Positions 16,954 through 51,758 of a stretch of DNA of 64,000 nt are shown in pieces (positions within the stretch are counted from its first letter, which is position 1; the number at the start of each line of letters is the position of its first letter). Both the position numbers and the translations under genes were made by a program. The notes beneath the pieces were generated by a model. That model had not been told where the DNA came from. It saw only the letters and a list, made by a program, of their open reading frames with translations, and ran no database searches. Source of the DNA: Bacteroidales bacterium. GTDB lineage: Bacteria > Bacteroidota > Bacteroidia > Bacteroidales > P3. The DNA lies in contig JAFSYK010000071.1 in assembly GCA_017449975.1 (NCBI GenBank), positions 40,970-104,969 of the forward strand, read 5' to 3'.

Positions 16954-16963
16954 GGGGGTGAGG

Positions 16964-18025: not shown

Positions 18026-18105
18026 AATTGAGAATTGAGAGTTGAGAATTGAGAATTATTATGTAGGAGGTTCTAGGCATTCCTAGGAGGGCCTAGGATT
18101 GCCTA
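18026..18105. repeat. GAATTGA array and CCTAGG+4 nt array (period 10) covering the M20 gene 3' end
   Basis: GAATTGA/GAGTTGA units at 18026-18056, then hexamers TCTAGG, CCTAGG, CCTAGG, CCTAG spaced by 4 nt (18071-18105). The TAG stop of the M20 gene (18083-18085) and its last residues (QLGNPRPS) are made of this array. Confidence 0.85.
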
Positions 18106-20832: not shown

Positions 20833-23800
20833 TTAGTTCTTTTTAATCAGTAATTTCAATGTTTCTTTCTCCACCAGTTCAATCTCCTGCGCTTGCGCAT
20901 CGGTGATGTCGGTGCCGGCAGGCAGGATGGTGAGCTCGGTGCAGAGCGTTTCGGTGCAGATGTACTCCTGGAAGGCGCGGATGGCCGCGTCACAGGAGCT
21001 GGCGGTCAACGTGATGTTGATGCGATCGGTGACGTCGAACTGCTCCTTGCGGATGTTCTGCACACGGTTGACGAACTCGCGGGCGACGCCCTCGTTGCGC
21101 AGCGCATCGGTGAGCGTGATATCGAGGGCCACGGTGAGCGCGCCTTCGTTGGCGACCACCCAGCCGGGGATATCCTGCGTGGCAATCTCAACATCCTCCA
21201 ACGTCAGATCGACAGGCTGGCCTTCGACGGTCAAGCTGTAACGACCTTCCGCCTGCAGCGTGTTGATCTGCTGCTGCGAGAAGTTGGCGATGGCGGCGGA
21301 GAGCGCCTTCATAATCTTGCCGTAGCGGGGACCCAGCGTCTTGAAGTTGGCCTTGATGCGCTTGACCAGCATCTCGTCGTCGGGAGCCAGGAACTGCAGC
21401 TCCTTGACGTTGACCTCGCTGAGGATGAGCGACTGCACCGCCTCGACCTGCGCACGGAAGTGGTCGTTGGCGGCCGGCAGCACGATGCGCTGCAGCGGCT
21501 GACGCACACGCAGGTTGTGTTTCTTGCGCAGTGCCAATGTCAGCGAGCTGACACGCTGTGCCAGACGCATGCGCTCCTCGAGGTCGTGGTCGATGAGGGC
21601 GGTGTCGACAGTGGGGAAATCGGCGTGGTGCACCGATGCCACCGTGAAACGGTGTGTCACCGCGTTGAGGTCGAGGAAGAGGCGCTCGGCGAAGAAAGGA
21701 GCGATAGGCGCCATGATGCGGCTCAGCGTCTCGAGACAGGTGTAGAGCGTCTGATAGGCCGAAAGCTTGTCGTCGGTCATCTCGCCACGCCAGAAGCGGC
21801 GACGGCTGAGGCGCACATACCAGTTGCTGAGACAGGCGTCGACAAAGTCGGCGATGGCACGGCCGGCGCGGGTGGGCTCATAGTCGAAATAGGCCGCATC
21901 GACGGTCTGCACCAACGTGTTGAGCTCGCTGAGAATCCAGCGGTCGATTTCGGGACGGCGAGCGGCAGGCAGGTCGGGCTGGCTGTAGTCGAAGCCGTCG
22001 AGGTTGGCATAGAGGGCGAAGAAGCTATAGGTGTTGTAGAGGGTGCCGAAGAATTTGCGGCGCACCTCGTCGACACCCTCCACGTCGAACTTGAGGTTGT
22101 CCCACGGCTGACTGTTGGTAATCATGTACCAGCGGGTGGCGTCGGGACCGTATTTGGAGAGCGTTTCGAAGGGGTCGACGGCGTTGCCGAGACGCTTGGA
22201 CATCTTGTTGCCGTTCTTGTCGAGCACCAGACCGTTGGAGACCACGTTCTTAAAGGCCACGCTGTCGAAGCACATGGTGGCGATGGCGTGGAGTGTGTAG
22301 AACCAGCCACGTGTCTGGTCGACGCCCTCGGCGATGAAGTCGGCGGGGAACTCGGTAGCCTTCAGCGGCTCGCCCATATAATGAATCTGTGCATAGGGCA
22401 TGGCGCCGCTGTCGAACCAGACGTCGATCAAATCGGGCTCACGGCGCATGGGCTTGCCGGAGGCGGAGACCAGGACGACGTTATCGATGTACGGACGGTG
22501 AAGGTCGAACTTGGTATAGTCGGACTTGTCGGACAATTTATACGGGTTCTCCTTCATGAAGCCGGCGGCGACGGATTTCTCAATTTCGGCGTTGAGCTCG
22601 GCAACGCTGCCGATACAGATTTCCTCTTTGCCGTCCTCGGTGCGCCAGATGGGCAGCGGGGTGCCCCAGTAGCGGCTGCGACTGAGGTTCCAGTCGACGA
22701 TATTCTCCAGCCAGTTGCCGAAGCGGCCACTGCCGGTGGCTTCGGGCTTCCAGTTGATGGTCTTGTTGAGCTCAATCATGCGCTCCTTGAGGGCCGTGGT
22801 GCGGATAAACCAGCTGTCGAGCGGATAGTAGAGCACCGGCTTGTCGGTACGCCAGCAGTGGGGATAGCTGTGGCTGTGCTTCTCGCTCTTGAAAAGCTTA
22901 CCCTGCTCCTTGAGCATGACCACCAGCTCGATGTCGAGGCTGATGTCCTTGTCGGTCTTGGTGGCGTCGTAGGCGTTCTTGACGAACTTGCCGGCATACT
23001 TGCTGTATTCTTCAACATTGACGTTGGCCTTCACCCATTCGGGGTCGAGCTCGTCGAGGCAGGCGAAGCGGCCCTGCTTGTCGACCATGGGCATCTGCTT
23101 GCCGTCGCGGTCGAACATCAGCAGTTCGCCGATACCCGCCTTTTTGGCGACGCGGGCGTCGTCGGCACCAAAGGTGGGGGCGATATGGACAATGCCGGTA
23201 CCGTCCTCGGTGGTGACGTAGTCGCCCAGGATTATCCGGAACGAGCCCTTATCGCTGACCTCTTTGGGTTTCACCCAAGGAATCAGCTGATCGTAGTAGA
23301 TACCTTCCAGTGCCGTACCCTTGCAGCGGCTCAGCACTGTGCAGGGGATAAGCTTGCTCTTCTCGTCGGCCTCGCCCTCGGTGAAGAAGTCACCCAGGCG
23401 CGCCTCCGCCATGATGATGCGGCAGTCCTCACCCGTGTAAGGGTGCTTGGTCTCGATCAGCACATAGTCGATATTGGGACCCACGCAGAGGGCGGTGTTG
23501 CTGGGCAACGTCCAGGGGGTCGTCGTCCAAGCGATGGCGTAGGTAGGCAATTGAGTATTGAGAATTGAGAATTGAGAATTATTTGACGCGTCAGCCGAAT
23601 TTTCAATTTTCCATTTTCCATTTTCAATTAGTTTAAACATCGCCACGCAGGTGGTGTCCTTCACGTCGCGGTAGCAGCCGGGCATGTTGAGCTCGTGGCT
23701 GCTGAGGCCGGTGCCGGCGGCGGGGCTGTAGGGCTGGATGGTGTAGCCTTTGTAGAGGAGACCCTTGTCGTAGAGCTTCTTCAGCAGGAACCAGAGCGTC

Positions 23801-24294: not shown

Positions 24295-27200
24295 CTAATT
24301 CGTTAAGTGATTTTCGGATAATTCTTTGATGATTTCGTTGGCTTGCTGCATGCTTTTGATGGGTGCCACCCGCAGCGAGAGACGGTTGTCTTTCTCGCGG
24401 AGGCGCGCTGTGGCGGCATGCTGCTGGGCATAGGTGATGAGACGGTTGAAGTGTGCCGACTGGTAGAAGGGGTTCTGCGTGTCGGTGGGGAAGTAGAGCG
24501 ACATGGCGTCGGTTTTGAGCACGATGCGGTCGATGCCGAAGGCTTTGGCTCTGCGACGCAGCGGCACGGTAAGCAACAGCTCCTGCGTAGCCTTGGGCAA
24601 CGGACCGAAGCGGTCGATCAGCTGGTCGCGGTAGCGGTCGACATCGTCGTCGGTGACCAAGTCGGCAATCTGCCGATAGAGCAGCAGACGCTCGCTGATG
24701 CTGGTGACATAGTCGTCGGGGATGAGCGCTTCGAGGTCGGTCTCGACGGTACATTCACGCACGTATTCCTGCTTCTCCTCCGCCTCGCGGACGAAGAGGT
24801 CGTGGAACTCGGACTGCTTCAGCTCGTCGATGGCCTCGGCGAGAATCTTCTGGTACATGTCGTAGCCTATCTCGCTGATAAAGCCGCTCTGTTCGGCGCC
24901 GAGGATGTTGCCCGCGCCGCGGATGTCGAGGTCGCGCATGGCGATATGGAAGCCGCTGCCCACGCTGCCGAACTCTTCAATGGCACGGAGACGCTTGCGC
25001 GCCTCGTCGGTCAGCGTCTCGTAGGAGGGGATGATCATATAGCAGAACGCCTTCTGGTTGCTGCGTCCCACACGGCCGCGCAGCTGGTGGAGGTCGCTGA
25101 GACCGAAGTTCTGGGCGTTATTGACGATCATCGTGTTGGCGTTGGGGATGTCGAGACCGTTTTCGACGATGGAGGTGGCCACCAGGACGTCGATGTCGCC
25201 CGACAGGAAGTGCATGAGCGTCTCCTCCACCTCGTGGCCGTCGAGACGGCCGTGGGCGATGGCGACACGCGCGTCGGGGACAAGCCGGCGCACCAGGTCG
25301 GCCATGCCGTCCATGTTCTCCACCCGGTTGCTGACGAAGAAGGTCTGTCCGCCGCGCGACATCTCATACATGATGGCGTCGCGCACAAGCTCCTCGCTGA
25401 AGGTGCAGACCTCGGTCTGGATGGGCTGCCGGTTGGGCGGCGGCGTCTGGATGACGCTGAGGTCGCGGGCACCCATAAGCGAAAACTGCAACGTGCGGGG
25501 GATGGGCGTGGCGGTGAGGGTGAGACAGTCGACGTTGACTTTCATCTGACGCAGCCGCTCCTTGATGGCGACGCCAAATTTCTGCTCCTCGTCGATGATG
25601 AGCAGTCCCAGGTCTTTGAAATGAACGCTCTTGCCCGTGATGGCATGGGTGCCGATGAGGATGTCGATTTTGCCCTCCTCGAGGTCGTGCAACAGGGCGG
25701 TGCGCTCGCGGGTGGAGCGAAAACGGTTGAGGTAGTCGACCCGCACGGGCATGCCCTGCAGTCGGTCGCGGAAAGTGTTGTAGTGTTGAAACGCCAAGAT
25801 GGTGCTGGGCACCAGCACCGCCACCTGCTTGGAGTCGGCCACCGCCTTGAAGGCGGCACGGATGGCCACCTCGGTCTTGCCGAAACCCACGTCGCCACAG
25901 ACCAGACGGTCCATCGGCGAGGTGGCTTCCATGTCGTGCTTCACATCGAGGGTGGCACGCTGCTGGTCGGGGGTGTCCTCGTAGAAGAACGACGACTCCA
26001 GCTCGGTCTGCAGGTAACTGTCGGCACTATAGGCAAAACCTTTCGACGCCATACGCTTGGCGTAGAGGGCGATGAGGTCTTTGGCAATGTCCTTGACCTG
26101 CTTCTTGGTGCGCTGTTTGAGCACCTGCCAGCTGCTGCTGCCAATCTTGTCGAGGGTGGGCGCCACGCCGTCCTTGCCTACATAGCGGCTGATTTTGTGG
26201 AGGCTGTGGATGCTGATATAGAGGATGTCGCCGTTGCGATAGACCAGGCGTATCACCTCCTGGGAACGACCGTCCTTGGTGATCTTCTCCAAACCCGAGA
26301 AACGTCCGACACCGTAGTCGATATGGGTGACGAAATCGCCCGGCTTGAGTTCAAACAGCTCTTTGAGCGTCAACGCCTCGCGGTTCTGGCGCAGGTCGCG
26401 GACGGTGTATTTATGGTAGCGCTCGAATATCTGGTGGTCGGTGAAGCAGACCCGCTTGCTGTCGTGGTCGACAAAGCCCCCCGCCAGCTGTCCGTTGACG
26501 ATGGCGAGGCCGTCGGTGGAAAGCACCTTTTCGAGACGCGCGCGCTGCTGTTCGCCCGAGACGGTGATAAAGATGCTGTAGTTGCGGTCGCGGTAGTCGG
26601 AAAGCGTCTGCGCCAACAGGTCGAACTGCTTGTTGAAGCGCGGCTGCGGCTCGCTGTGCGCCTCGAGCAGCGTGGCGTTGGAGAAATAGCCGCTGCTGCC
26701 CTGCTCAACGATGCGGCAACGGAGCAGCTGCCGTGTGAAATCCTCGGCGTTGCTGTAGAGTGCGTCGGGCTCGAGGTGGGCAACCGGCGAATGGGCCAAC
26801 GACTCGTAGTGACTGACCGCCGTGGCGTAGCACTTGTCGATACGCTCGGTGAGGAAGAGCAGTCCGTGGAGCCACACCACGTCGGTGGCGGCGAGGTAGG
26901 CCAGCAGCGATACATGCTCGGTGAGGGTGATGCTGTCGGCAGCGTCGCCCGCCAGACGCGGCACAATGCTGACACTGTCGTGACGGCGTGCCGAGAGCTG
27001 CGTGACAGGGTCGAAGCTGCGCAACGAGTCGATGACATCGTCGAAGAGCTCGATGCGGTAGGGCATATCGCTGCCGTAGGAGTAGATGTCGACGATGCCA
27101 CCGCGCACAGCGTACTGGCCCGGCTCGACGACAAAGTCGACACGCTCGAAGTTGTAGTCCTGCATGAGGGCGATGACCTGGTCGATGTCGAGACGGCCAC

Positions 27201-27672
27201 CCTGCGCCAGCTGCATGGTGTGGCGCGACAGGGTGCGCGACGACACCACCTTCTCGGACAACGCCTCGGGATAGGTGACGACGACGATGGGGCGACCCGA
27301 CGAGAGCTGTCGGATGACCTCGGTGCGCTGCAGCTCGTTGGCGTTGTCGACCTCCGACGCCTCGTTTTCGTCACGGTGACTGTAGGGGCGACGATAGGTG
27401 GTGGGGAACAGCAGCACCCGTTTGTGGTCGGCATCTTTTTCGACGTCGTCGAGGAGCGTCTCCATATCGTTGAGCAGATAGAAGGCCTCCTCCTTGTCGG
27501 CTGCGATGAGCAGGTGGGTGCTGCGGCCGTCGGAGGCAAAGAGCGATGCAGCCAGCACCGCGTTGAGCGAACCCGACAACCCGGCCACACGCACACGCGC
27601 CCCCTCGCCATCGAGGGCGGCTGCGAGCGCAGAGACCTGCGCATCGTTACGATAACTGTCGAGTAACTCCAT
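24295..27672 (-). CDS. mfd: Transcription-repair coupling factor
   Basis: 1,125 residues, normal Mfd length. It displaces stalled RNA polymerase and recruits UvrA to lesions. Order: N-terminal UvrB-like module (FPTTYRRPYSHRDENEAS), RNA-polymerase interaction domain (ELKPGDFVTHIDYGVGRFSGLEKI), superfamily-2 translocase with Walker A GDVGFGKTEVA (about residues 593-603) and DEEQ box (about 691), helicase motifs TATPIPRTLQFSLMGARD and QLRGRVGRSNQKAFCY, and the C-terminal TRCF domain. It starts with ATG at 27672, 24 bp from ileS downstream. A TAnnTTTG promoter lies 24 bp upstream. Confidence 0.97.
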   Translation of the reverse strand: MELLDSYRNDAQVSALAAALDGEGARVRVAGLSGSLNAVLAASLFASDGRSTHLLIAADKEEAFYLLNDMETLLDDVEKDADHKRVLLFPTTYRRPYSHRDENEASEVDNANELQRTEVIRQLSSGRPIVVVTYPEALSEKVVSSRTLSRHTMQLAQGGRLDIDQVIALMQDYNFERVDFVVEPGQYAVRGGIVDIYSYGSDMPYRIELFDDVIDSLRSFDPVTQLSARRHDSVSIVPRLAGDAADSITLTEHVSLLAYLAATDVVWLHGLLFLTERIDKCYATAVSHYESLAHSPVAHLEPDALYSNAEDFTRQLLRCRIVEQGSSGYFSNATLLEAHSEPQPRFNKQFDLLAQTLSDYRDRNYSIFITVSGEQQRARLEKVLSTDGLAIVNGQLAGGFVDHDSKRVCFTDHQIFERYHKYTVRDLRQNREALTLKELFELKPGDFVTHIDYGVGRFSGLEKITKDGRSQEVIRLVYRNGDILYISIHSLHKISRYVGKDGVAPTLDKIGSSSWQVLKQRTKKQVKDIAKDLIALYAKRMASKGFAYSADSYLQTELESSFFYEDTPDQQRATLDVKHDMEATSPMDRLVCGDVGFGKTEVAIRAAFKAVADSKQVAVLVPSTILAFQHYNTFRDRLQGMPVRVDYLNRFRSTRERTALLHDLEEGKIDILIGTHAITGKSVHFKDLGLLIIDEEQKFGVAIKERLRQMKVNVDCLTLTATPIPRTLQFSLMGARDLSVIQTPPPNRQPIQTEVCTFSEELVRDAIMYEMSRGGQTFFVSNRVENMDGMADLVRRLVPDARVAIAHGRLDGHEVEETLMHFLSGDIDVLVATSIVENGLDIPNANTMIVNNAQNFGLSDLHQLRGRVGRSNQKAFCYMIIPSYETLTDEARKRLRAIEEFGSVGSGFHIAMRDLDIRGAGNILGAEQSGFISEIGYDMYQKILAEAIDELKQSEFHDLFVREAEEKQEYVRECTVETDLEALIPDDYVTSISERLLLYRQIADLVTDDDVDRYRDQLIDRFGPLPKATQELLLTVPLRRRAKAFGIDRIVLKTDAMSLYFPTDTQNPFYQSAHFNRLITYAQQHAATARLREKDNRLSLRVAPIKSMQQANEIIKELSENHLTN

Positions 27673-27695
27673 CCTATTATAAAAATAATAAATTG

Positions 27696-27703
27696 CAAAA
27701 ATA
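27696..27703 (-). promoter_or_regulatory. Bacteroidetes -7 box for mfd
   Basis: TATTTTTG on the minus strand, 24 bp before the mfd ATG, within an AT-rich divergent spacer shared with porX. It matches the TAnnTTTG consensus. Confidence 0.6.
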
Positions 27704-27818
27704 CGAAAAAAAGAGAAATGACGTTTTTAGTAAAAGACATTCGGATTCTCCCACTTTCGGAGATTCGAAATAATGTCCCTACAAACCTATCAACCCTACA
27801 ACCCTCAAACCCTATATC

Positions 27819-29366
27819 ATGAAAATTCTTTGGGCTGACGACGAAATTGATTTACTGAAACCGCATATCCTCTTTCTGGAAGAACGTGGCTACCAGGTGA
27901 TACCGGTCACCAGCGGCAACGACGCGCTGGACGCCATGGCGGAGGAACAGGTGGACCTGGTTTTTCTCGACGAGAACATGCCTGGCATGAGCGGACTGGA
28001 CACACTGACCGCCATCAAAGAGCAGCACCCCAACCTACCCGTGGTGATGATCACCAAGAGCGAGGAAGAGCACATCATGGAAGAGGCGCTGGGCAGCAAG
28101 ATTTCCGACTACCTTATCAAACCCGTGAACCCCAAGCAGATACTGCTGACCATCAAGAAGCATACCGAGGCCCGCAGACTGGTGAACGAGAAGTCGATGA
28201 TGAACTACCAACAGGAGTTCCGCGAGATTGGCATGCGGCTGATGGATCCACTGGACTACAACGACTGGATAGAGCTCTACAAGCGACTGGTATACTGGGA
28301 GATTGAGCTGTCGAACAACGACGACGAAAATATCCGCAACATCCTGCAGTCACAGAAACAGGAAGCCAACCGCCAGTTCTGCCGTTACTACGAGCGCAAC
28401 TATATCGACTGGCTCAAGGGCGCGAGCGAGAAACCGACGCTGTCGCCCATGGTGCTGCGCGAGCGCATGATGCCGTTGCTGAACGACAAACGGCCCACCT
28501 TCCTGATTGTCATCGACAACTTCCGCTATGACCAGTGGAAGCACCTGCAGCCGCAGTTTGAACAGCTGTTCCACGTCGAGACAGACTCCATCTATTACAG
28601 CATCGTGCCCACAACGACCCAGTTTGCCCGCAACGCCATGTTCGGTGGTCTGATGCCGTCGGAAATCGAACGCAAATATCCGCAGTACTGGGTCAACGAG
28701 GACGAAGAGGGGTACAAAAACCAGTTCGAAAACGAGCTGCTGGAAGAGAACCTGCGCCGCAACGGCATCCAGATACGCCACAGCTACAACAAGGTGCTCA
28801 ACGCCCAGTACGGACTGCGTTTGGCCGAGGATGTAAACAAGTTGATGCACAACCCGTTGAATGTGATTGTCTACAACTTCATCGACATGCTGTCGCACGC
28901 CCGCACCGACTCGAACATTGTGCGCGAGCTGGCCGCCGACGAGCGCAGCTACCGGTCGGTGACCCGCTCCTGGTTTGAGCATTCGCCGCTGGTGGAGCTA
29001 CTGAAGAACCTGTCGGAGCGCGACGTGAATGTACTGCTGACCACCGACCACGGATCGGTGCGTGTGGACCGTCCCGTGCGTGTACGCGGCGACAAAGAGG
29101 TGTCGGTGAACCTGCGCTACAAACAGGGACGTCTGCTGGAATACAACGCCAAGGAGGTGTTTGAGGTGAAAGACCCAACGAGCATTTTCTTGCCCAAACG
29201 GCACATCACCTCACCCTATATCTTCGCCCACGAGAACGATTTCTTCGCCTACCCCAACAACTACAACCAGTACGTGCAGTACTACGACAGCACCTTCCAG
29301 CACGGCGGCATCTCGATGGAAGAGGTGATGATACCGTGGGTGGAGATGAAGAGCAAGAAGAGTTGA
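27819..29366 (+). CDS. porX: PorX-type response regulator with PglZ phosphatase domain
   Basis: 515 residues. Receiver domain residues 1-120 with the acidic pair D7/D8, phosphoacceptor D51 (FLDENMPG), T79 and K101 (LIKPVNP). The C-terminal PglZ/alkaline-phosphatase-like domain includes IVPTTTQFARNAMFGG (catalytic Thr region), FIDMLSHART and LLTTDHGSVRV (metal ligands). In Porphyromonas and Flavobacterium PorX partners PorY and controls type IX secretion. This fits the T9SS sorting domain seen in the protein encoded at 31689. The start ATG follows a CCCTACAACCCTCAAACC repeat, and the 3' end abuts a TCTAGA array converging with tex. Confidence 0.92.
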   Translation: MKILWADDEIDLLKPHILFLEERGYQVIPVTSGNDALDAMAEEQVDLVFLDENMPGMSGLDTLTAIKEQHPNLPVVMITKSEEEHIMEEALGSKISDYLIKPVNPKQILLTIKKHTEARRLVNEKSMMNYQQEFREIGMRLMDPLDYNDWIELYKRLVYWEIELSNNDDENIRNILQSQKQEANRQFCRYYERNYIDWLKGASEKPTLSPMVLRERMMPLLNDKRPTFLIVIDNFRYDQWKHLQPQFEQLFHVETDSIYYSIVPTTTQFARNAMFGGLMPSEIERKYPQYWVNEDEEGYKNQFENELLEENLRRNGIQIRHSYNKVLNAQYGLRLAEDVNKLMHNPLNVIVYNFIDMLSHARTDSNIVRELAADERSYRSVTRSWFEHSPLVELLKNLSERDVNVLLTTDHGSVRVDRPVRVRGDKEVSVNLRYKQGRLLEYNAKEVFEVKDPTSIFLPKRHITSPYIFAHENDFFAYPNNYNQYVQYYDSTFQHGGISMEEVMIPWVEMKSKKS

Positions 29367-29370
29367 GAGT

Positions 29371-29441
29371 TTCTAGAAAAACTAGATAATCTAGAAAATC
29401 TAGAAAATCTAGAAAATCTAGAGCTTCTAGAAAAACTAGAC
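29371..29441. repeat. TCTAGA+NNN array between convergent porX and tex
   Basis: About eight units of TCTAGA with spacers AAA, ATA, AAA, GCT and so on (period 9; two units are ACTAGA). The array fills the convergent gap, and the TAG stop of tex (29436-29438) lies inside the last unit. Confidence 0.9.
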
Positions 29442-31562
29442 TTTCAGGCTCAGGGATATTCTTTTTCTTCTCAGGTCCACTTCCAGGACTTTGACTTTCA
29501 CCTGTTGGTGGAGGTGTACGACCTGTGCGGGGTCGGTGACGCGGTGGTGGGCCATCTGACTGATGTGGACCAGTCCGTCGTGGTGGACGCCGACGTCGAC
29601 GAAGGCGCCGAAGGCGGTGATGTTGGTGACGATGCCCGGCAACACCATGTCGGGTTTCAAATCCTCGATGGTGTTGACACTACGGTCGAACTCGAACACT
29701 TCGAACTGCGCCCGCGGGTCACGCCCGGGCTTGTCGAGCTCGGCCAGGATGTCGCGCAACGTGGGCATACCGCACTCTTCCGTACAATAGCGCTGCAGGT
29801 CGATGCGGCCACGCAGCTCGCGGTCGGCCATCAGTTGTTCGACACCGCACCCCAGGTCGGCGGCCATACGCTCGACAAGGGCGTAGCGTTCGGGATGCAC
29901 CGCACTGCGGTCGAGTGGGTTGGCACTGTCGGCGACCCGCAGGAAGCCCGCACACTGCTCGTAAGCTTTGGGACCGAGACGCGGCACCTTGAGCAGGTCG
30001 CGACGACTGAGGAAAGGCCCCTCGTCGGTGCGGTATTCGACGATGCGGTCCGCCAAGGCCGGACCGATGCCGCTGACATAGCTGAGCAACTCCGGACTGG
30101 CGGTATTGAGCTCGACACCGACACTGTTGACGCAAGAGACGACGGTGTCGTGGAGCCCCTCCTGAAGCAGGTGTTGGTCGACATCGTGCTGGTACTGGCC
30201 CACGCCGATGCTGCGGGGGTCGATCTTGACCAACTCGGCCAAAGGATCCATGAGACGGCGACCGATGCTGACGGCGCCGCGCACGGTGATGTCGCAGTCG
30301 GGAAACTCACGGCGTGCCACCTCGCTGGCACTGTATACGGAGGCGCCGCTCTCGCTGACCATGACGACGACCGGCTGTTTGTGGAAGGCACAACGGCGCA
30401 CCATATCCTCGGTCTCACGGCCCGCGGTGCCGTTGCCGATGGCGACAGCGTCGACGGAGAACTCGTCGGCCAACATCACCAGCCGTTCCATGGCGGCACG
30501 CTCCTCGCGGACGGAAGCAAAGGGATAGATGGTGTCGAAATGCAGCAGGTCGCCATGCTCGTTGAGACAGACCACCTTGCATCCCGTGCGAAAGCCAGGG
30601 TCGATGGCCATGACACGCTTGCGGCCCAGCGGCGACGCCCGCAGCCGCGGGCGCGGGGTGGTGGCAAAGATACGGATGGCCTCACGGTCGGCACGCTCTT
30701 TCACCTGACGGTAGAGCTCGGTCTCAAGCGACGGCGCCAACAGGCGATGGTAGCCGTCGTCGACCGCTTGCGCCACCTGGTCGGCAGCGGCATTGTGACC
30801 CTGCACAAATTGGCTGTGGAGCACTTTGAGCGGCTCCTCGTCGGTGGCCGGCAGCAGGTGCAGGCGCAGCAACCCCTCGTCAGCGCCACGGAAGATGGCC
30901 AACACACGGTGAGACGGCGCTTTCTGCACCGGCTCGGACCAGTCGAACCATGATTCGTATTTGGCCGCCTCCTCGATTTTGGTACGCACCACGCTGGAGG
31001 TCAGCAGAGCGGTGCGACGGAAGATGTTGCGCACACGGCTGCGGGCGAAAGCATCCTCGCTGACCCGCTCGGCGATGATGTGACGCGCCCCCTGCAGGGC
31101 GTCGTCGACGGTGGGAACCCCCTTTTCGGCATTGACAAACGGCTGGGCGAGGGCGACGACATTGCTGTCGCGCTGCTGCATCAGCGCGTCGGCCAGCGGC
31201 TCCAGCCCCCGCTCGATGGCGATGGAGGCATAGGTGCGGCGACGCGGCTTGAAGGGCAGATACAGGTCCTCGAGTTGCGTCATCGTCGCTGCCTCACGGA
31301 TGCGCTGTTCCAGCTCGGGCGTCAGCTTGTCCTGCGCACGGATGGCGTCGAGGATGAAGGTGCGTCGCGCATCGAGTTCGCGCAAGCGCAGCAGCTGGTC
31401 GCGGATGGCGGCAATCTGCACCTCGTTGAGAGAGCCCGTAACCTCCTTGCGGTAGCGGGCGATAAAGGGGATGGTGGCACCCTGGTCGAGCAACTCGATG
31501 GTCTTGGCGACCTGTCGCACTCCCAACCCGAGAGCGGCGGCAATGGTATCGGCGTAATTCAT
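29436..31562 (-). CDS. tex: Tex family RNA-binding transcriptional accessory protein
   Basis: 708 residues from the ATG at 31562 (MNYADTIAAALGLGVRQVAKT); a longer frame to 31682 overlaps the promoter region and is not used. Tex order: N-terminal helical region (TIPFIARYRKEVTGSLNEVQI), YqgF/RNase H-like domain (RVMAIDPGFRTGCKVVCLNEHGD), helix-hairpin-helix pair (SPELLSYVSGIGPALADRIV, LLKVPRLGPKAYEQCAGFLRV) and C-terminal S1 domain (GIVTNITAFGAFVDVGVHHDGLVHIS). It is a conserved cytosolic nucleic-acid-binding protein affecting transcription. The TAG stop is inside a TCTAGA array. Confidence 0.95.
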   Translation of the reverse strand: MNYADTIAAALGLGVRQVAKTIELLDQGATIPFIARYRKEVTGSLNEVQIAAIRDQLLRLRELDARRTFILDAIRAQDKLTPELEQRIREAATMTQLEDLYLPFKPRRRTYASIAIERGLEPLADALMQQRDSNVVALAQPFVNAEKGVPTVDDALQGARHIIAERVSEDAFARSRVRNIFRRTALLTSSVVRTKIEEAAKYESWFDWSEPVQKAPSHRVLAIFRGADEGLLRLHLLPATDEEPLKVLHSQFVQGHNAAADQVAQAVDDGYHRLLAPSLETELYRQVKERADREAIRIFATTPRPRLRASPLGRKRVMAIDPGFRTGCKVVCLNEHGDLLHFDTIYPFASVREERAAMERLVMLADEFSVDAVAIGNGTAGRETEDMVRRCAFHKQPVVVMVSESGASVYSASEVARREFPDCDITVRGAVSIGRRLMDPLAELVKIDPRSIGVGQYQHDVDQHLLQEGLHDTVVSCVNSVGVELNTASPELLSYVSGIGPALADRIVEYRTDEGPFLSRRDLLKVPRLGPKAYEQCAGFLRVADSANPLDRSAVHPERYALVERMAADLGCGVEQLMADRELRGRIDLQRYCTEECGMPTLRDILAELDKPGRDPRAQFEVFEFDRSVNTIEDLKPDMVLPGIVTNITAFGAFVDVGVHHDGLVHISQMAHHRVTDPAQVVHLHQQVKVKVLEVDLRRKRISLSLKV

Positions 31563-31644
31563 AGTGGATAAAAGAATTATGAGAACGGAGAGAGACCCGT
31601 ATCTGAAAACAAAGATAAGAATTTTCCGATAAGCATTTTTTTTG

Positions 31645-31652
31645 TATCTTTG
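31645..31652 (+). promoter_or_regulatory. Bacteroidetes -7 box for the Omp28-like gene
   Basis: TATCTTTG preceded by a T-rich tract, 36 bp before the ATG at 31689. It matches TAnnTTTG; the 5' leader would be about 30 nt and AT-rich. Confidence 0.6.
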
Positions 31653-31688
31653 CGTCGAAATAAAAATATAACAAATAATCATTAAGCT

Positions 31689-34022
31689 ATGAAAAGATTC
31701 ATACCTTTTGTTCTTTGCATTGCAGCGTTGGTTTCATTTGCCAATGCGCAATCGTTTAGTTTTGTGTTCAACAACACAACCTATCAGCATCGCGACACGA
31801 TGACCTATTACGTGAACAACGGAACGGCCGTCATGGAGGGCGTCACGTTTCACAACAACACCGCCAACACGATGGATGTCATTGCATCGCTCAACGCGAT
31901 GGAGAACAGCAACGGCATTGTGGTGACCGGTACCTCCAACGGAAGTGTGAGCAATGCGAACTATTACACCGCCAACTTCTCTGTCGCTGCCGATGAAGGC
32001 AACAGCGACTGCTCCTTCCATCTCTCAGTGCCGACAAACCTTGCCATGGCTGATACCAGCTGGTTCTACCTGTTGGTGTCGGACTATGCCGCCGGCAACC
32101 CCGACTCGTCGGCAGGCTCGTATGTATTTGTCCGTATGGTCATCACTCCCAGCGAGGGCTACAGCATCTTCTCGGAGGATTTCAACTCGATGACCAACAT
32201 CTCGAGCTATTTCTACACCCTGCCTGAAGGCTGGACCACCATCGGTGACGGACAGGCGAACTATAGCAACTATTCGAGCTTTGGCGACAGCTGGATTGGA
32301 TTGAATGTCTCGGGCATTGGTCTCGTGGCCGCCAGCACCTCCTACCTGTCGTCGGGTTCCGCCACGGCCAACCGCTGGCTCATCACCCCCTCCATCTACA
32401 TCCCCACCGAGGGCTTCAGCTTGGTCTTCAAACTCTACGGCAACAGCGACAGCTACCCCGAGAGCATGAAAGTCATGATTTCCACCACCACCAACGATCG
32501 GACTGCTTTCAGCACCACTCTTTTGAATGTGCCCACCGTTCCCGCAGGTGAAACGCTGCGTATTATCGACCTTTCGGCCTACGCCGGACAGAATGTCTAT
32601 ATCGCATTCGTGAACTGTGGCACCAACGGCTACTATGTCTGCATTGACGATGTGATGGTGACCGTCCCTGTCCAGAACGAGATTGTCCTCACCGGCTTGA
32701 CGCTGCCCGGTCAGGCACCCAACAACGGCTCTATTTCCATCAAGGGTACTGTGAAAAACAACGGTGCGTCTCCGCTGACCAACTACGCGGTGCAGTACAC
32801 CGTCGACGGTGTCACCTCTCCCACCTATGTGGTGTCCAACATCAATGTGGGAACCAGCCAAACCCATACCTTCACCCACAACGTGCCCTACCAGCCCACC
32901 ACGCTGGGTGAGCACACCATCACCGTCACGGTGTCGGACCCCAACGGTGTGGCCGACAACACCCTTGACAACACCCTCAGCGGCACTGTCAACGTCTATG
33001 ACGGTAGCCATGCCGTGCAGCGCACCGTGCTGATGGAGAACTTCACCACCGCCCAGTGCGGCAACTGCCCGTCGGCCCACGTCCGCATCAAGAATGCCCT
33101 CCAAGGCCGTAACGATGTCATCTGGGTGGCTCACCATGTGGGCTATGGCACCGACACCTGGACCCTCAACGCCAGCAACACGCTGACCCGCTTCTACGCT
33201 GCCAACAGCACCTACGCTCCCGCGCTGATGCTCGACCGTACGCATTTCACCGGCGCCGCCTTCTCGGACGGAAGCAGCAGCAATGCCCCCGGCCCCATCT
33301 TCTTCCCCTCGAGCGATGTGGGAACCGCTATCCAGACCGCTGCCGATCAGCCCGCTTTCCTGACCGTGGCGCTCAAAAACACGCATTACGATGCCGCCAC
33401 CCGTGAGTTGACGACGACGGTCAAAGTGAATGTGCTGACCGACCTGAATATGTCGGATCCCCGTGTGTCGCTCTACCTGATTGAGGACAGCCTCTACGGC
33501 CAGCAGTCGGGTGCCAACACCAGCAACTACCAGCACGACCATGTGATCCGTGCCGCCATCAGCGACATCACCGGTGACGCCAACATCCTCACGTCTGTCA
33601 CGGAAGGCACCGAGGAGGAACACACCTACACCTACACGCTGAACAGCAGATGGAACGCCAACCACTGCCGCTTGGTGGCCTTCGTGAACAACTACAGCAC
33701 AAGCAACGTCAACGACTGCAAGGTGATGAACTCGACCATCTCGGCCTATCTGCGTGACGGCGATGTAGGCATCGACGATGTGGATCAGACCTCGCTGCGC
33801 ATCTACCCGAACCCCACCACCGACTTCAGCATCCTGGAGTGCGAGAACGGCATCCGCGAAGTGGTTGTCATCAACACGCTGGGTCAGGAAGTGATGCGCC
33901 AGCTGCACGACGGCAGCAACCAGGTGCGTATCGAGACCGCCACGCTGCCCGCCGGCGTCTACCTGGTGAAGGTGCGCAACGGCCAGACCGAAGCCATCCA
34001 ACGCTTGACGGTGACCCGATAA
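31689..34022 (+). CDS. T9SS-exported protein: choice-of-anchor J, CARDB-like and Omp28-like domains
   Basis: 777 residues. Signal peptide MKRFIPFVLCIAALVSFANA. A choice-of-anchor-J/MAM-like domain is at about 155-335 (FSEDFNSMTNIS...GLNVSG...ITPSIYIP). A CARDB-like Ig domain is at about 340-435 (SIKGTVKNNGASPLTNYAVQ). An Omp28-related thioredoxin-like domain starts at about 445 (VLMENFTTAQCGNCPSAH, CxxC near residues 457-460). A type A T9SS C-terminal sorting domain (LRIYPNPTTDFSIL...LPAGVYLVKVRNG...IQRLTVTR) completes it. It should be secreted across the outer membrane and attached to the surface or released. It is the direct evidence in this window that T9SS cargo is made. Confidence 0.92.
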   Translation: MKRFIPFVLCIAALVSFANAQSFSFVFNNTTYQHRDTMTYYVNNGTAVMEGVTFHNNTANTMDVIASLNAMENSNGIVVTGTSNGSVSNANYYTANFSVAADEGNSDCSFHLSVPTNLAMADTSWFYLLVSDYAAGNPDSSAGSYVFVRMVITPSEGYSIFSEDFNSMTNISSYFYTLPEGWTTIGDGQANYSNYSSFGDSWIGLNVSGIGLVAASTSYLSSGSATANRWLITPSIYIPTEGFSLVFKLYGNSDSYPESMKVMISTTTNDRTAFSTTLLNVPTVPAGETLRIIDLSAYAGQNVYIAFVNCGTNGYYVCIDDVMVTVPVQNEIVLTGLTLPGQAPNNGSISIKGTVKNNGASPLTNYAVQYTVDGVTSPTYVVSNINVGTSQTHTFTHNVPYQPTTLGEHTITVTVSDPNGVADNTLDNTLSGTVNVYDGSHAVQRTVLMENFTTAQCGNCPSAHVRIKNALQGRNDVIWVAHHVGYGTDTWTLNASNTLTRFYAANSTYAPALMLDRTHFTGAAFSDGSSSNAPGPIFFPSSDVGTAIQTAADQPAFLTVALKNTHYDAATRELTTTVKVNVLTDLNMSDPRVSLYLIEDSLYGQQSGANTSNYQHDHVIRAAISDITGDANILTSVTEGTEEEHTYTYTLNSRWNANHCRLVAFVNNYSTSNVNDCKVMNSTISAYLRDGDVGIDDVDQTSLRIYPNPTTDFSILECENGIREVVVINTLGQEVMRQLHDGSNQVRIETATLPAGVYLVKVRNGQTEAIQRLTVTR

Positions 34023-34050
34023 ACGACTATAAAAACCTTTGAAGAACAAC

Positions 34051-34647
34051 ATGAAGAAAGTTCTGCTAACGGTGGCACTGGTTGCCACTCTGACAACGAC
34101 CTTCGCTCAGGAGGTCAGCTCACGCGCCAAAGCCATGCGCATCATGAAGTTTGCCCGACCGGAGTATCAGGTGAAAGACATCAAGGTACTGGTCGACACA
34201 ATGACCGTGTATGCGTTGAACGAACAAGTGGTATATCCCTTTGGCAAGTGGAACAGCATTGAACAGTACATCACCGACGGCCAGCTGCGCTGGGACCGCG
34301 AAGTGGGCTACAAACACTATCTGGACTCGATGCATGTGTCGGTCAACACCCTGAAAAGACTGGACGGCAGCGAGATTGATGTGTTCCGCAGCATTTCGAC
34401 GGGACTCATGGAGATTCTTGCCGCCCACATCACCGACCCCGAGGTGTCCTTTGTCAACGGGCCGCATCCCGGCATGACCAAGGCCGATGTATTCAATGTC
34501 TTCTTCGACACCTATCCCACCTCCTACACCCAGGACATCACAGTACTGAAAGTGGTGTCGGGCGCACACGAGGTTGAACAGGTGTATACCTTCAAGGGGC
34601 AACGGCTACGCCTCATCGAGGTGCGGAGCCGCTACAAATACTATTGA
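34051..34647 (+). CDS. Small secreted protein of unknown function
   Basis: 198 residues from the ATG at 34051 (MKKVLLTVALVATLTTTFAQ, cleavable signal peptide); an upstream TTG at 34039 is less likely. The mature part is mixed alpha/beta with no Cys, no lipobox and no recognised domain (RAKAMRIMKFARPEYQVKDI, DGQLRWDREVGYKHYLDSMH). It lies 28 bp after the T9SS-cargo gene on the same strand and ends at a strong terminator, so the two are probably co-transcribed. It lacks a sorting domain, so it is likely periplasmic. Function unknown. Confidence 0.75.
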   Translation: MKKVLLTVALVATLTTTFAQEVSSRAKAMRIMKFARPEYQVKDIKVLVDTMTVYALNEQVVYPFGKWNSIEQYITDGQLRWDREVGYKHYLDSMHVSVNTLKRLDGSEIDVFRSISTGLMEILAAHITDPEVSFVNGPHPGMTKADVFNVFFDTYPTSYTQDITVLKVVSGAHEVEQVYTFKGQRLRLIEVRSRYKYY

Positions 34648-34652
34648 TTACA

Positions 34653-34684
34653 AAAAAGAGCGCCGCAAATGCGGCGCTCTTTTT
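34653..34684. terminator. Intrinsic terminator (bidirectional)
   Basis: Stem AGAGCGCCGC / GCGGCGCTCT, loop AAAT, flanked by A-run on the left and T-run on the right. It is a textbook Rho-independent terminator ending the 31689-34647 unit. Confidence 0.9.
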
Positions 34685-34762
34685 AAATCTAGAAGCCCTA
34701 GAAAATCTAGAAGCTCTAGAAAATCTAGATAATCTAGACCATCTAGAAAATCTAGAAAAAAC
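34685..34762. repeat. TCTAGA+NNN array before nadD
   Basis: Eight units of TCTAGA (one CCTAGA) with spacers AGC, AAA, AGC, AAA, TAA, CCA, AAA. The array lies directly after the terminator and 22 bp before the nadD start. Confidence 0.92.
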
Positions 34763-34783
34763 CAAAATCCACAATTCTCTCCC

Positions 34784-35365
34784 ATGTATCGCAAGGTTGG
34801 TCTTTTCTTCGGTTCTTTCAATCCCATCCATGTAGGGCACTTGATTATTGCCAACACCTTTGTCGGGCGCACCGATCTGGACGAGGTGTGGCTGGTGGTG
34901 TCACCCCAGAACCCTTTGAAGCAACAGAAAAGTCTGCTGGCCGACTACCACAGGGTGGAGATGGTGCGCCGTGCCGTGGAGGACAACGACCGGCTGCGGG
35001 TGTGTGACGCAGAGCTGAAGCTGCCTGTGCCGTCGTATACCGTGCTGACGCTGGCGCATCTGGGCGAGCAATACCGCGACAAGGAGTTTTCGCTGATAAT
35101 GGGTGGCGACAACCTGGCGTCGTTTGAGCGCTGGCGCAACTACGAATACATCTTGGAGCACTACCCTATCTATGTTTATCCGCGTCCCGGATTCGACAAC
35201 TGTCCGCTACGCGACCACCGCAACGTACACCTGGTGGATGTCCCCATGATGAATATCTCTTCCAGCGACATCCGCGAGCGGATTCGACGTGGCGAATCGG
35301 TGCAGTATCTACTCACCGAACCGGTGCATCAGTATCTAAGAGAGATGCACTTCTATGAAAAGTAG
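34784..35365 (+). CDS. nadD: Nicotinate-nucleotide adenylyltransferase
   Basis: 193 residues, normal length. It transfers AMP from ATP to nicotinate mononucleotide in NAD synthesis. Motifs: GSFNPIHVGHL (the GxFxPxHxGH nucleotidyltransferase box) at residues 10-20, MGGDNLASFERWRNYE, and the C-terminal ISSSDIRERIRRGESVQYLL. It starts with ATG at 34784 right after a TCTAGA array. No TAnnTTTG box was seen close upstream, so the promoter may lie within the array or the gene may be read through from upstream. Confidence 0.96.
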   Translation: MYRKVGLFFGSFNPIHVGHLIIANTFVGRTDLDEVWLVVSPQNPLKQQKSLLADYHRVEMVRRAVEDNDRLRVCDAELKLPVPSYTVLTLAHLGEQYRDKEFSLIMGGDNLASFERWRNYEYILEHYPIYVYPRPGFDNCPLRDHRNVHLVDVPMMNISSSDIRERIRRGESVQYLLTEPVHQYLREMHFYEK

Positions 35366-35371
35366 AAGGGG

Positions 35372-35477
35372 ATTCTAGAGTTTCTAGAGTTTCTAGATAT
35401 TCTAGATATTCTAGAGTTTCTAGAGTTTCTAGAGTTTCTAGATAATCTAGATATTCTAGATGTTCTAGAAACTCTAG
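35372..35477. repeat. TCTAGA+NNN array (longest copy) between convergent nadD and AKP gene
   Basis: About twelve TCTAGA units with 3-nt spacers (GTT, GTT, TAT, TAT, GTT x3, TAA, TAT, TGT, AAC), strict period 9. It is the clearest example of a constant palindromic hexamer with a variable spacer. It fills the convergent gap. Confidence 0.93.
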
Positions 35478-35485
35478 GATAAAAA

Positions 35486-36721
35486 TTATTTCTTCTTTGT
35501 GGCCGGCTTTTTGGCAGCGGGCTTGGCGGGTGCTTTTGCGGCAGGCTTGCTTGCGGGCTTGGCCGTCGACTTAGCGGGTGCCTTGGGTGCCGGTTTCGCA
35601 GTGGGTTTGCTGGCAGGCTTGGCAGGCGCTTTGGCAGCGGGCTTACTGGCCGGTTTGGCAGGCGCTTTGGCTGCGGGCTTGGCTGCAGGCTTGGCCGGTG
35701 TTTTGGCGGCAGGCTTAGCGGCGGGTTTGGCTGCGGGCTTGGTGGCGGGTTTGGCCGGTGTTTTGGCGGCGGGTTTGGCGGCGGGCTTGGCCGGAGCCTT
35801 GGGTGCCGGTTTGGTAGCAGGCTTGGCAGCCGTTTTAGCGGGGGCCTTGGCTGCGGGCTTTGCCGCGGGCTTTGCCGCGGGTTTGGCGGCAGGATTAGCG
35901 GCCGATTTAGCGGCGGGCTTTGCCGGTGCTTTAACCGTTGTTTTAGCAGCAGGCTTGGCGGGCGCCTTCGCGACAGGCTTGGCAGCCGTTTTAGCGGGTG
36001 CTTTGGCAGCAGGCTTTGCAGCGGGTTTAGCTGCGGGTTTTGTAGCGGGCTTGGCGGGAGCCTTCTTCACGGCAGCTTTGGCGGCCGGTTTGGCAGATGA
36101 TTTCTTGGGTGCGGATTTGGCCGTGGACTTGGCAGGAGCAGCGTCGAGAAGGCCGCCACCGAGCAGTTCGGCATCGATGTCGTCCAGATCCTCCGCCGTG
36201 GGCTCCAGCTCATCGTCGGCGTCATCGTCGTCGGGTTCATCGTCCAGGTTGTCGTCGGGCTCGTCCTCATCGTCGGCATCGAAAGCAGCCTCGATTTCAC
36301 GGCCTGCGCTGGAACGTTTTTCAATATCGGATTTCGACGATTTGTCGCGTTGGAAGACATCTTCGTAATCGCCATGCTTGAGCGTGCGCTCCGTGTGGTT
36401 GGGATTGCCGTCGTCGTCTTTGTCCATCACCTCGGAGATGGAGTCGTAGTCATCGTCTTTGTCGTCACCCTCGAAGAGACCCTTGTCAAGGTCGTCGTCG
36501 CTGAGGGCGGCATCGATTTTGACATCAAACTTGACCATATAGGAGCAGTCTTCGGTCTCAAAGGGAACAACGAAAATCGGGTCCCCATTGGGCTTCAAGA
36601 TACGTTGCAGATAGTCTCGGTAGCCTTCGGGATAAAGCTCCTTGAATTGTTCAACCAGTTCTTCAGAAAGGTTCTTGTAACTGACAATCAGTCGTTTTTT
36701 AGTTTTTGAGGCAGCACTCAT
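35486..36721 (-). CDS. Histone H1-like protein: conserved head, acidic middle, Lys/Ala/Pro tail
   Basis: 411 residues from the ATG at 36721 (MSAASKTKKRLIVSYKNLSEELVEQFKELYP); a longer frame to 36790 crosses the promoter and is not used. Residues 1-100 are a folded head (DPIFVVPFETEDCSYMVKFDV). Residues 100-200 are strongly acidic (EDEPDDNLDDEPDDDDADDE). Residues about 205-411 are repeated AAKPAAK/APAKPA with KKK at the end. Tails like this bind DNA non-specifically in bacterial H1-like proteins, while the head resembles proteins conserved in Bacteroidetes. It could be a nucleoid protein; DNA binding is inferred. The tail is repeat-prone DNA. The promoter is TTTG-N20-TATACTTG just upstream. 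Confidence 0.8.
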   Translation of the reverse strand: MSAASKTKKRLIVSYKNLSEELVEQFKELYPEGYRDYLQRILKPNGDPIFVVPFETEDCSYMVKFDVKIDAALSDDDLDKGLFEGDDKDDDYDSISEVMDKDDDGNPNHTERTLKHGDYEDVFQRDKSSKSDIEKRSSAGREIEAAFDADDEDEPDDNLDDEPDDDDADDELEPTAEDLDDIDAELLGGGLLDAAPAKSTAKSAPKKSSAKPAAKAAVKKAPAKPATKPAAKPAAKPAAKAPAKTAAKPVAKAPAKPAAKTTVKAPAKPAAKSAANPAAKPAAKPAAKPAAKAPAKTAAKPATKPAPKAPAKPAAKPAAKTPAKPATKPAAKPAAKPAAKTPAKPAAKPAAKAPAKPASKPAAKAPAKPASKPTAKPAPKAPAKSTAKPASKPAAKAPAKPAAKKPATKKK

Positions 36722-36738
36722 GGCAGTATATTTTGATG

Positions 36739-36746
36739 CAAGTATA
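36739..36746 (-). promoter_or_regulatory. Bacteroidetes promoter for the AKP protein gene
   Basis: TATACTTG (near TAnnTTTG) 18 bp before the ATG at 36721, with TTTG (36767-36770, minus strand) 20 nt further upstream as the -33 element. It supports the shorter start. Confidence 0.55.
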
Positions 36747-36786
36747 GCAAATGATTTGAAAAAGTACAAAGATTTTGCATGTTTTT

Positions 36787-38679
36787 TCACACGACGAGAA
36801 TACTCTCATCGTCCTCGATGCGTAAATTCTTCATAATGAAATCGCGACGTTCAACGCTATTTTCACCCATATAGAAGCGCAACACGCCGGGAATATCAAA
36901 GTCTTTATGCAGCATGACCGGGTCGAGCCGCATATCCTGGTCGATGAAACCCTTGAACTCGTCGGGCGAGATCTCGCCCAAACCTTTGAATCGGGTGATT
37001 TCGGCGTTGGGTGTCGACGCGATGGCCGCCACACGTTCCTCCTCGGTGTAGCAGTAGTGCGTCACCTTTTTGTTGCGGACACGGAAGAGCGGCGTCTGCA
37101 GGATATAGACATGGCCCGTGCGGATGAGTTCGGGATAGAAACGCAGGAAGAAGGTGAGCAGCAGCAGACGGATGTGCATGCCGTCGATATCGGCATCGGT
37201 GGCGATGACCACGTTGTTGTAGCGCAGGTTTTCGATACCGTCGTCAATGTCGAGGGCGTTGTGGAGCAGGTTGAGCTCCTCGTTCTTGTAGACCTCGGCC
37301 TTGGAGATGGAGTAGGTGTTTTTGGGTTTACCGCGCAAGCTGAACACCGCCTGCGTCTCCACGTCGCGGCTCTTGGTGATGCTACCGCTGGCGGAGAGAC
37401 CCTCGGTGATGAAGATGGTGCTCTCGAGACGCCGCGGATGGTTGCTATTGTAGTGGACATGGCTGTCGCGCAGCTTGGAGTTGTTGAGATTGGCACGTTT
37501 GCTGGCCTCGCGCGCCAGTTTCTTGACGCCCGCAATTTCCTTGCGTTCTTTCTCGTTGCGGATGATTTTCTGCTGCAACGCCTCGGCGGTGTCGGGATTC
37601 TTGTGAAGATAATTGTCGAGGTGGGTCTTCAGCATGTCGTAGACATAGGTCTTCAGCAGCGGACTGTCGTAGTTGCCATCCTTGTCGGGCGGTGCCATGT
37701 GGGTCGAGCCCAGCTTGGTCTTGGTCTGCGCCTCGAAGACCGGTTCTTGGATGCGCACACAGAGCGCACAGACCAAACCTTGACGAATGTCCTCGGGCAC
37801 ATACTCCTTCTTATTGAAGAACTCTTTCACCACACGGGCATAGCCCTCGCGGAAGGCACTCTGGTGGGTGCCGCCCTCGGTGGTATGCTGACCGTTGACA
37901 AAGGAGTAGAAATAGTCGCTGCTTTGGCCGTTGACATGAGTGAACGCCGCTTCGAAGTCGCCGTCGTGGATATGGATGACGGGATAGATGGGATCGGTCT
38001 CCATATTGTTCTCCAACAGGTCGAGCAGACCGTTTTTGGAATAGTAGCGCTTGTCGTTGTAGTAGAGGGTGAGTCCCCGGTTGAGGTAGCAGTAGTTCCA
38101 TACGCGACGCTCCACGTACTCGTTGATGAAATGGTAGTTGCCAAACAGCTGTGCGTCGGGCACAAACTCGACATAGGTTCCGTTGGCCTCGCTGCTGGCG
38201 ATGATGCCGCTGTCGGAGACCAGCTTGCCTTTGGAGAACTCGGCGATGCGACACTTGCCGTCGCGCACCGCCATTACCTTGAACTCCGACGAAAGGGCGT
38301 TGACCGCCTTGGTACCCACACCGTTCAAGCCCACCGACTTCTGGAACGTCTTGTTGTCGTATTTGGCACCCGTGTTCAGCTTGCTCACCGCGTCGATGAC
38401 GCTGCCCAGCGGAATGCCGCGACCGTAGTCGCGGATGGCCACACGGCGGTCGGCGAAGTGGACCTTCACCTCGATTTTCTTGCCGAAACCCGAAGTAAAC
38501 TCATCGATGGCGTTGTCGATAACTTCCTTGATAAGGACATAGATGCCGTCGTCGTGGGAGGATCCGTCGCCCAGCTTGCCGATATACATACCGGGGCGCA
38601 GGCGGATGTGTTCCATATCTTCGAGATGGATAATACTCGACTCGTCGTAGTTGGCAGTGGTGGGTATCAATTCTTCCAT
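36787..38679 (-). CDS. parE: DNA topoisomerase IV subunit B (ParE/GyrB type)
   Basis: 630 residues, typical of Bacteroidetes ParE. It is the ATPase subunit of the enzyme that unlinks daughter chromosomes, acting with ParC. GHKL ATPase motifs: [10 protein letters not shown] (Mg-binding Asn), [23 protein letters not shown]. The TOPRIM domain is at [13 protein letters not shown] and [19 protein letters not shown]. The C-terminal segment [24 protein letters not shown] is normal. parC is not adjacent in this window. The promoter TATTTTTG lies 50 bp upstream. Confidence 0.93.
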
Positions 38680-51595: not shown

Positions 51596-51758
51596 CAGTT
51601 AGGCAATCCTAGGAAATCCTAGGCAGTCCTAGCAGATAGTGATTACCCTTCAAACCTTTCAAACCTCTTAAACCTTTCAAACCTCTCAAACCTCTCAAAC
51701 CTTTCAAACCCTCAAACCCTTCAAACCCTTTAAACGTTAAACATTAAACGTTAAACGA
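51580..51758. repeat. Array cluster: GTTAGC, CCTAGG+4, CCTTTCAAA/CCTCTCAAA and TTAAACG units
   Basis: From 51580 GTTAGC units straddle the engB stop; CCTAGG hexamers with 4-nt spacers at 51607-51632; CCTTTCAAA/CCTCTCAAA units (period 9) at 51648-51720; TTAAACG/TTAAACATT units to about 51758. No gene in this gap. Confidence 0.88.

Follow-up and report, generated by a model that had tools for sequence, protein, structure and literature searches.

The element considered here is a tandem array of CTAG cores repeated every 9 bp, found in a 64,000-nt stretch of the genome of a Bacteroidales bacterium (contig JAFSYK010000071.1, positions 40,970 to 104,969; hereafter the window), and several described systems come close to it. 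TRAP is an 11-mer that reads KAG about every 5 nt, the DNA uptake sequences of Neisseriaceae occur in species dialects and are placed at gene ends, and REPs are thought to be spread by RAYT transposases. In the accessible part of the source, REP elements are palindromes of 20–40 bp with GTAG/CGTC tags (PMC3733652). The BrickBuilt minisatellite-MITE (miniature inverted-repeat transposable element) of Porphyromonas gingivalis consists, in the accessible text, of 23-nt units without spacers and has inverted-repeat ends, with 'CTAG' absent from the main text (PMC4596501).

When the CTAG arrays are compared with these systems, the likeness is in each case partial. An oligomer reading tandem short UAG-containing leader sites is shared with TRAP only in the mechanism proposed below, and TRAP has a different fold and a KAG spacing of about 5 nt as opposed to 9 nt. 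Species dialects at gene ends are shared with the DNA uptake sequences; unlike these, the CTAG arrays are tandem and oriented to transcription. As in REP/RAYT REPtrons, palindromes are dispersed outside genes and a protein gene is flanked by them, but the units are 9-bp tandem repeats rather than tagged palindromes of 20–40 bp (PMC3733652), and the recurrent flanking gene encodes a four-helix bundle of family TIGR04258. No link to RAYT was seen, since Y1_Tnp, which 74 of the 121 genus genomes contain, shows no relation to array number (p 0.45). BrickBuilt likewise has dispersed tandem repeats in the same order, but the CTAG arrays have 9-bp units with spacers (PMC4596501). The 23S rRNA IVP/S23 proteins (PF05635, TIGR02436) and Avd of the diversity-generating retroelements share the fold and weak sequence matches with TIGR04258 proteins, which differ in carrying an extra suffix and in going with CTAG arrays instead of rRNA inserts or retroelements. 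The RNA recognition motif protein RbpB was also considered and dropped, the accessible part of its description giving no UAG motif (PMC11697453). Within the open-access literature, subscription papers and curators' notes lying outside this scope, we found no paper describing the repeat or the TIGR04258 family. The position of CTAG arrays beside TIGR04258 genes hints that arrays and protein may act together as sites and binder in a pairing not yet described, and we give a probability of roughly one half to the reading that the arrays are recognition sites of this protein, acting mainly in RNA.

Five arrays had been listed in a preliminary description of the window as a palindromic hexamer TCTAGA with a variable 3-nt spacer (15868–15942, 17005–17050, 29371–29441, 34685–34762 and 35372–35477), and each was recovered within a few bases. 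We counted 30 copies of the arrangement TCTAGA-N3-TCTAGA in the window and none in 100 dinucleotide-preserving shuffles. Twelve units at 9 bp, 11 of them exact TCTAGA, make up the array at 35375–35477, which lies in the convergent gap between a nadD-like gene (34784–35365, +) and the gene at 35486–36790 (−); its spacer triplets vary as described (GTT, TAT, TAA, TGT), and AAC stands before a degraded TCTAGG unit. An array of eight units (34689–34755, +) ends 28 nt 5′ of nadD and begins 3 nt after a hairpin, GAGCGCCGC...GCGGCGCTCTTTTT, behind the gene at 34039–34647 (+). Eight further units (29373–29439) lie between 27819–29366 (+) (response regulator/PglZ) and a convergent tex-like gene (29436–31682, −), whose stop codon is overlapped by the array. 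On the minus strand, five units (17005–17044; sense spacers AAA, AAA, TAA, AAA) stand 11 nt past the stop of a G3P dehydrogenase-like gene (17056–18021, −), nine units (15867–15942) stand 6 nt past the stop of 15949–16953 (−) and ahead of a MatE gene, and a sixth 9-bp array, with four exact units and one CTAA (15125–15164), is within the MatE gene (14356–15822, −). The runs of exact TCTAGA extend over 15875–15934 (7 units), 17004–17045 (5), 29372–29431 (6), 34688–34756 (7) and 35374–35469 (11), and terminal units are often reduced to CTAG (GCTAGA, CCTAGA, TCTAGG). The window has 68 CTAG in all, 46 of them in 9-bp arrays; from base composition 243 would be predicted, and by a Markov estimate 134.

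The search was extended to the whole genome and its relatives. The window's genome (G000; 2.31 Mb, 103 contigs) holds 121 matches to three-unit TCTAGA arrays, and the three-unit pattern of AGATCT, the reversed letters and also a palindrome, had 0 matches in 41 genomes searched, G000 included. Five CTAG at 9-bp period (CTAG-N5) were matched in 59 of the 121 genus genomes, with a maximum of 208 matches (G877), as compared with none of the 121 for the reversed control GATC at the same spacing. Among relatives it is thus CTAG at 9-bp period, and not TCTAGA, that is constant. The idea of a constant palindrome with free spacers therefore holds for the core, while the hexamer as the unit had to be rejected, since the flanks vary among genomes and the two letters flanking CTAG match each other in 416 of 678 cases, fewer than in shuffles (430.9 ± 4.9). 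Flank dialects differ by genome among the places listed: mainly TCTAGA in G000, G808 and G824, ACTAGT in G821, a mix of ACTAGA and ACTAGT in G812, and CTAGC-rich in G892. CTAG is present in 1358 of 1391 units of 193 arrays (33 units lack it), a figure helped by selection because the arrays were located via CTAG, and the middle spacer columns agree at only 64–67%. That CTAG is kept while the spacers differ supports the earlier statement that this is not simple slippage. A core protected by wobble pairing was not seen (CCAG 9 and CTAA 2 versus CTGG 2 and TTAG 0 in sense-oriented arrays). None of the other 15 palindromic tetramers is as rare as CTAG in 41 stretches of genus sequence (735 kb in total, with 20 stretches drawn from array-rich genomes), where it occurs 470 times, 250 of them in the 20% called noncoding; its pair spacings number 173 at 9 bp, 7 at 10, 7 at 11 and 0–3 at each other spacing from 5 to 17.

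Outside the genus the arrays are patchy. Of 384 genomes sampled from the whole order, 13 have generic CTAG arrays (GATC control, 3), in a few cases as near-perfect repeats of one unit (for example G506, G457 and G554), and the four-unit TCTAGA form is present in 3 of 393 genomes of the order and 1 of 395 across the phylum. A collection scan gave at least 115 array stretches; among the matches listed, 97 bear titles mainly of Prevotella or other Bacteroidales, often with sample names that point to rumen or gut, and the other 18 are titled Victivallales, Lentisphaeria, Kiritimatiellae or Verrucomicrobia. The bacterium of the window is probably a gut member of the Bacteroidales as well. On viral contigs, at least 119 stretches carry CTAG-N5. 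A link to Vsr repair was rejected: Vsr is absent in four of five genomes with 100 or more matches (p 0.019, with the threshold set post hoc), but there is no overall trend (p 0.95).

The case for a protein partner comes first from family f135, in which three genomes have one array at the same place, 5′ of a gene of 197 aa (195 aa in one). Among 31 f135 genomes searched, array and gene occur together in five, and two hold the gene elsewhere, again with the array in front; five others match by the upstream gene only, and their loci have neither array nor family match; in one of them the contig ends just behind the gene. Across five species the leader array is 94% identical with every CTAG letter fixed, in a gap that is otherwise 44% identical, between coding sequences at 93% (upstream gene) and 87% (TIGR04258 gene). 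Spacers 1 and 3 are fixed and, in four of the five species, pair with each other in the predicted stem, with the variable spacer 2 left as the loop. The suggestion that conserved position in relatives would support function is thus borne out at this gene and fails at the flanks of nadD, the one dispersed site tested, where G000 has arrays on both sides and its relatives have none (see below). A search with gene B returned divergent, partly paralogous matches and was excluded from positional conservation.

The f135 protein matches NCBIfam TIGR04258 'four helix bundle suffix'; its matches to TIGR02436 and Pfam 23S_rRNA_IVP are weaker. All 17 proteins scanned score 54–76 bits against TIGR04258, above its curated 40-bit cut-off, and a CTAG array lies close to the gene in 11 of them but not in the other 6. 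The curated 24-bit cut-off of TIGR02436 was passed by 14 of the 17, and that of PF05635 by 1 of 10. The predicted fold matches 2gsc and 2rld, and 4dwl less well. The 2gsc structure has five chains, and the relative Xcc0516 is reportedly, by the title of its paper as cited in PMC10053308, a protein of five four-helix bundles. No nuclease match was seen in sequence-library and fold comparisons of TIGR04258-type proteins.

A profile search of the collected open frames gave 35 matches, many of them duplicates of the same place; in 30 cases an array lies no more than 400 nt away. Counting one entry per place, adding the Prevotella nigrescens gene and dropping L212 (an 82-aa fragment match beside an array), we obtained 21 array-bearing genes, with the array 5′ in 19, 3′ in 8 and on both sides in 6; since most stretches were picked for their arrays, the 5′/3′ figure is biased. 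Less biased is the converse, in which the gene adjoins an array in 7 of 115 array stretches among the matches listed, and of five gene clusters with at least four members TIGR04258 alone is enriched beside the listed array stretches. Thirteen places were found by gene match alone, and three of them have a 9-bp array (G902, G498 and P. nigrescens), from which it follows that the arrays go with one TIGR04258 branch and not the whole family. The window itself has no TIGR04258 gene by profile search; the gene of the same genome is on contig 48, with arrays flanking both sides. In P. nigrescens, three stretches of 11, 50 and 50 kb contain 4, 5 and 6 CTAG, of which 4/4, 4/5 and 0/6 are in 9-bp arrays, and the second array forms a hairpin of 21 pairs. 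A tblastn search with one family member matched 0 of 50,697 phage records.

Placement and orientation point to transcribed gaps. Using a simple purpose-made gene caller, we assigned 79 of 131 arrays to co-directional gaps, 21 to convergent and 4 to divergent gaps, 7 to genes and 20 to edges, the gaps of at least 20 nt available in those sequences being 368, 52 and 55, respectively; the earlier remark that arrays sit almost only in gene gaps is supported by this assignment as a preference. The preference is weaker in the genus set (n = 81), where co-directional gaps hold 46 arrays, genes 18, convergent gaps 7, divergent gaps 6 and edges 4. For the 79 co-directional arrays of the first set, the median distance is 14 nt from the upstream stop to the array and 46 nt from the array to the next start; often an array fills the space between a stop and a short A-rich leader. 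On the sense strand, Bacteroidales spacers are 52% A versus 29.5% in matched gaps, with A exceeding T in 58 arrays and the reverse in 11 (background 88:85; p 1e-6). The arrays are not intrinsic terminators as judged by a GC-rich stem and U-run, their 3′ sides being A-rich (AAAA in 17 of 46). No terminator-like site overlaps the three arrays in 27001–37000, in a scan that also misses the plain hairpin with a T-run before 34689, and Rfam gave 0 matches at gathering score in 14000–37000. A role as spare in-frame stop codons was rejected (up to 60 nt from stops, TAG divides among the three frames as 38:27:24; p 0.16). CTAG arrays within called genes at L198, L221, L230 and L238 are translated as Thr/Ser-Ser-X repeats, with CTAG retained despite available synonymous codons.

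The arrays fold as RNA far better than shuffles, with z-scores of −3.7 to −8.7 for the window arrays (n = 5) and medians of −4.3 for 45 genus arrays and −3.3 for 79 TCTAGA arrays. Such folding would fit the hairpin in the original suggestion of a dimeric binding site or RNA hairpin, yet the antisense RNA often folds better, and G-U pairs are not favoured among the variants of the core. Because flank covariation is lacking as well, structure alone is insufficient and CTAG itself must matter. Covariation closing the loops, 218/314 versus 205.3 ± 3.4 in 59 arrays, was gone at 100 arrays (393/561 versus 396.1 ± 4.1) and has been withdrawn. In family f141 (L459–L467), GATTAGAG/CTCTAATC arms enclose several of the CTAG arrays, which thereby come to lie in the middle of a large hairpin.

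On the reading preferred here, tandem sites with one CTAG per 9 nt would be read by a dedicated TIGR04258 protein, a helical bundle of the 23S-rRNA-IVP/Avd type that is extended at the C-terminus. The gene of this protein, together with the array in its 5′ leader, would be the founder unit, and autoregulation is the best reading of that array. In some genomes the arrays would since have reached tens of transcribed gaps, chiefly right past stops or between co-directional genes. CUAG arrays in a leader or 3′ untranslated region may be bound by an oligomer, possibly as hairpins with A-rich loops, and binding would change mRNA translation or decay. What the data show directly is the anatomy of the arrays, where they lie and how they are oriented to transcription, their adjacency to TIGR04258 genes and the conservation of one leader array; binding, a site in RNA rather than DNA, the oligomer, autoregulation and a common protein for the dispersed arrays are inferred. 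The most specific version, a post-transcriptional system in which an oligomeric Avd/IVP-type bundle wraps mRNA per 9-nt CUAG and controls its own leader, with scattered, fast-turning targets, a dialect co-evolving with the protein and CTAG kept out elsewhere, is tentative and, taken whole, doubtful.

Several observations weigh against recognition by this protein in RNA. At nadD, none of 29 orthologues has the dispersed arrays within 140 nt upstream and 150 nt downstream. Nine of the 13 gene-match-only places have no array, and one (L509) has a three-unit 10-bp CTAG run; the array-free places comprise L493, L499, L500 and L501, in which the TIGR04258 domain is fused to the GTPase MeaB, L507, L508 and L510, of similar length, matched by gene search and outside the TIGR04258 library scan, L496, cut by the locus end, and L502, a distant viral-contig protein. 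The profile search showed no TIGR04258 gene in the 18 Verrucomicrobiota-type stretches among the matches listed, and the A bias was not seen in Verrucomicrobiota (5 orientable arrays). Antisense RNA folds better than sense more often than the reverse (26:14 in the genus set, 51:20 in the TCTAGA set), the letters flanking the core do not covary, and 13 leader arrays show no general spacer complementarity except at lag 3 (reached by 12 of 500 shuffles). Finally, the palindromic core would equally suit a DNA-binding dimer.

This last point leads to an alternative that we consider unlikely, namely that the same protein binds double-stranded DNA, with tandem CTAG operators for dimers or oligomers repressing the gene, and roadblocks or nucleoid sites elsewhere. 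CTAG, whose letters alone are universal, forms a perfect dyad and is the rarest palindromic tetramer, and the terminal helix of several members resembles a leucine zipper (with weak matches to Pfam bZIP_1 in two, E 0.0013–0.0014); but the f135 members and L111 carry arrays without a zipper, the spacers are oriented to transcription, and arrays lie in convergent gaps or too near the next start to leave much promoter room. Still less probable is a REPtron-like spread, in which selfish repeats are propagated with the help of the TIGR04258 gene and have no regulatory role. The patchy, high-copy arrays with species-specific dialects, their turnover at nadD and the six genes with arrays on both sides would fit, whereas the four-helix fold without a nuclease match, the lack of relation between Y1_Tnp and array number, the f135 leader array conserved in genomes having a single match, and spacers that are not alike between copies would not. 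We regard as quite improbable that RNA structure alone is at work, with self-complementary hairpins shielding or insulating mRNA ends (REP/BIME-like) and an accidental protein link: the fold z-scores are strong and, by eye, inverted tandem repeats are seen in several CTAG-free gaps, and several of the array-free nadD gaps hold other tandem repeats, some forming inverted arms, but comparable GATC or AGATCT arrays are absent or rare, covariation was not seen, and the arrays adjoin one gene family. Neutral minisatellite slippage in gene gaps is disfavoured and very improbable, since, despite other period-7 and period-9 arrays in the window, duplicated spacer blocks and fast turnover at nadD, CTAG is kept while spacers differ, core and period are common to Bacteroidales and Verrucomicrobiota-type records, and the f135 array is conserved inside a diverged gap.

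Other repeats of the window include a period-9 TCCGGA/TCCGGC array with 3-nt, A-rich sense spacers, laid out as the CTAG arrays but with a different core (about 14174–14235, −), a period-10 CTAG array of four units (18073–18106) and a period-10 TCCTAGG-type array of three units (51609–51632), all of which look like variants of the 9-bp CTAG arrays. Gap minisatellites of period 7 and 9 (AATTGAG, GGGTTAT, GACTTATTA, ACCTTTCAA) lie at 11747–11882, 16962–16996, 18026–18057, 23549–23629 and 51645–51735, and relatives also show such repeats, some forming inverted arms. At L509 (2385–2408), three CTAG at 10-bp spacing run across the end of the third TIGR04258-type gene of G498. The L502 contig carries 9-bp TCGGAC-type repeats (1038–1153, 2062–2101, 4991–5028), at least two of them in coding frames as linkers, a lead only. 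One frame of the window (2–10762, −) stays open over more than 10.7 kb, runs off the window start and encodes a giant protein, and the product of 35486–36790 (−) is acidic, with a long Ala/Lys/Pro repeat tail and no Pfam match at 1e-5.

If the arrays are indeed the recognition sites of the TIGR04258 protein, a named but unexplained family would be given a job, and the helical-bundle IVP proteins would have a role beyond rRNA inserts and retroelements. The same pairing would account for the repeat arrays, hundreds in number, of uncultured gut Bacteroidales, and would offer a reason for the avoidance of CTAG in these genomes.
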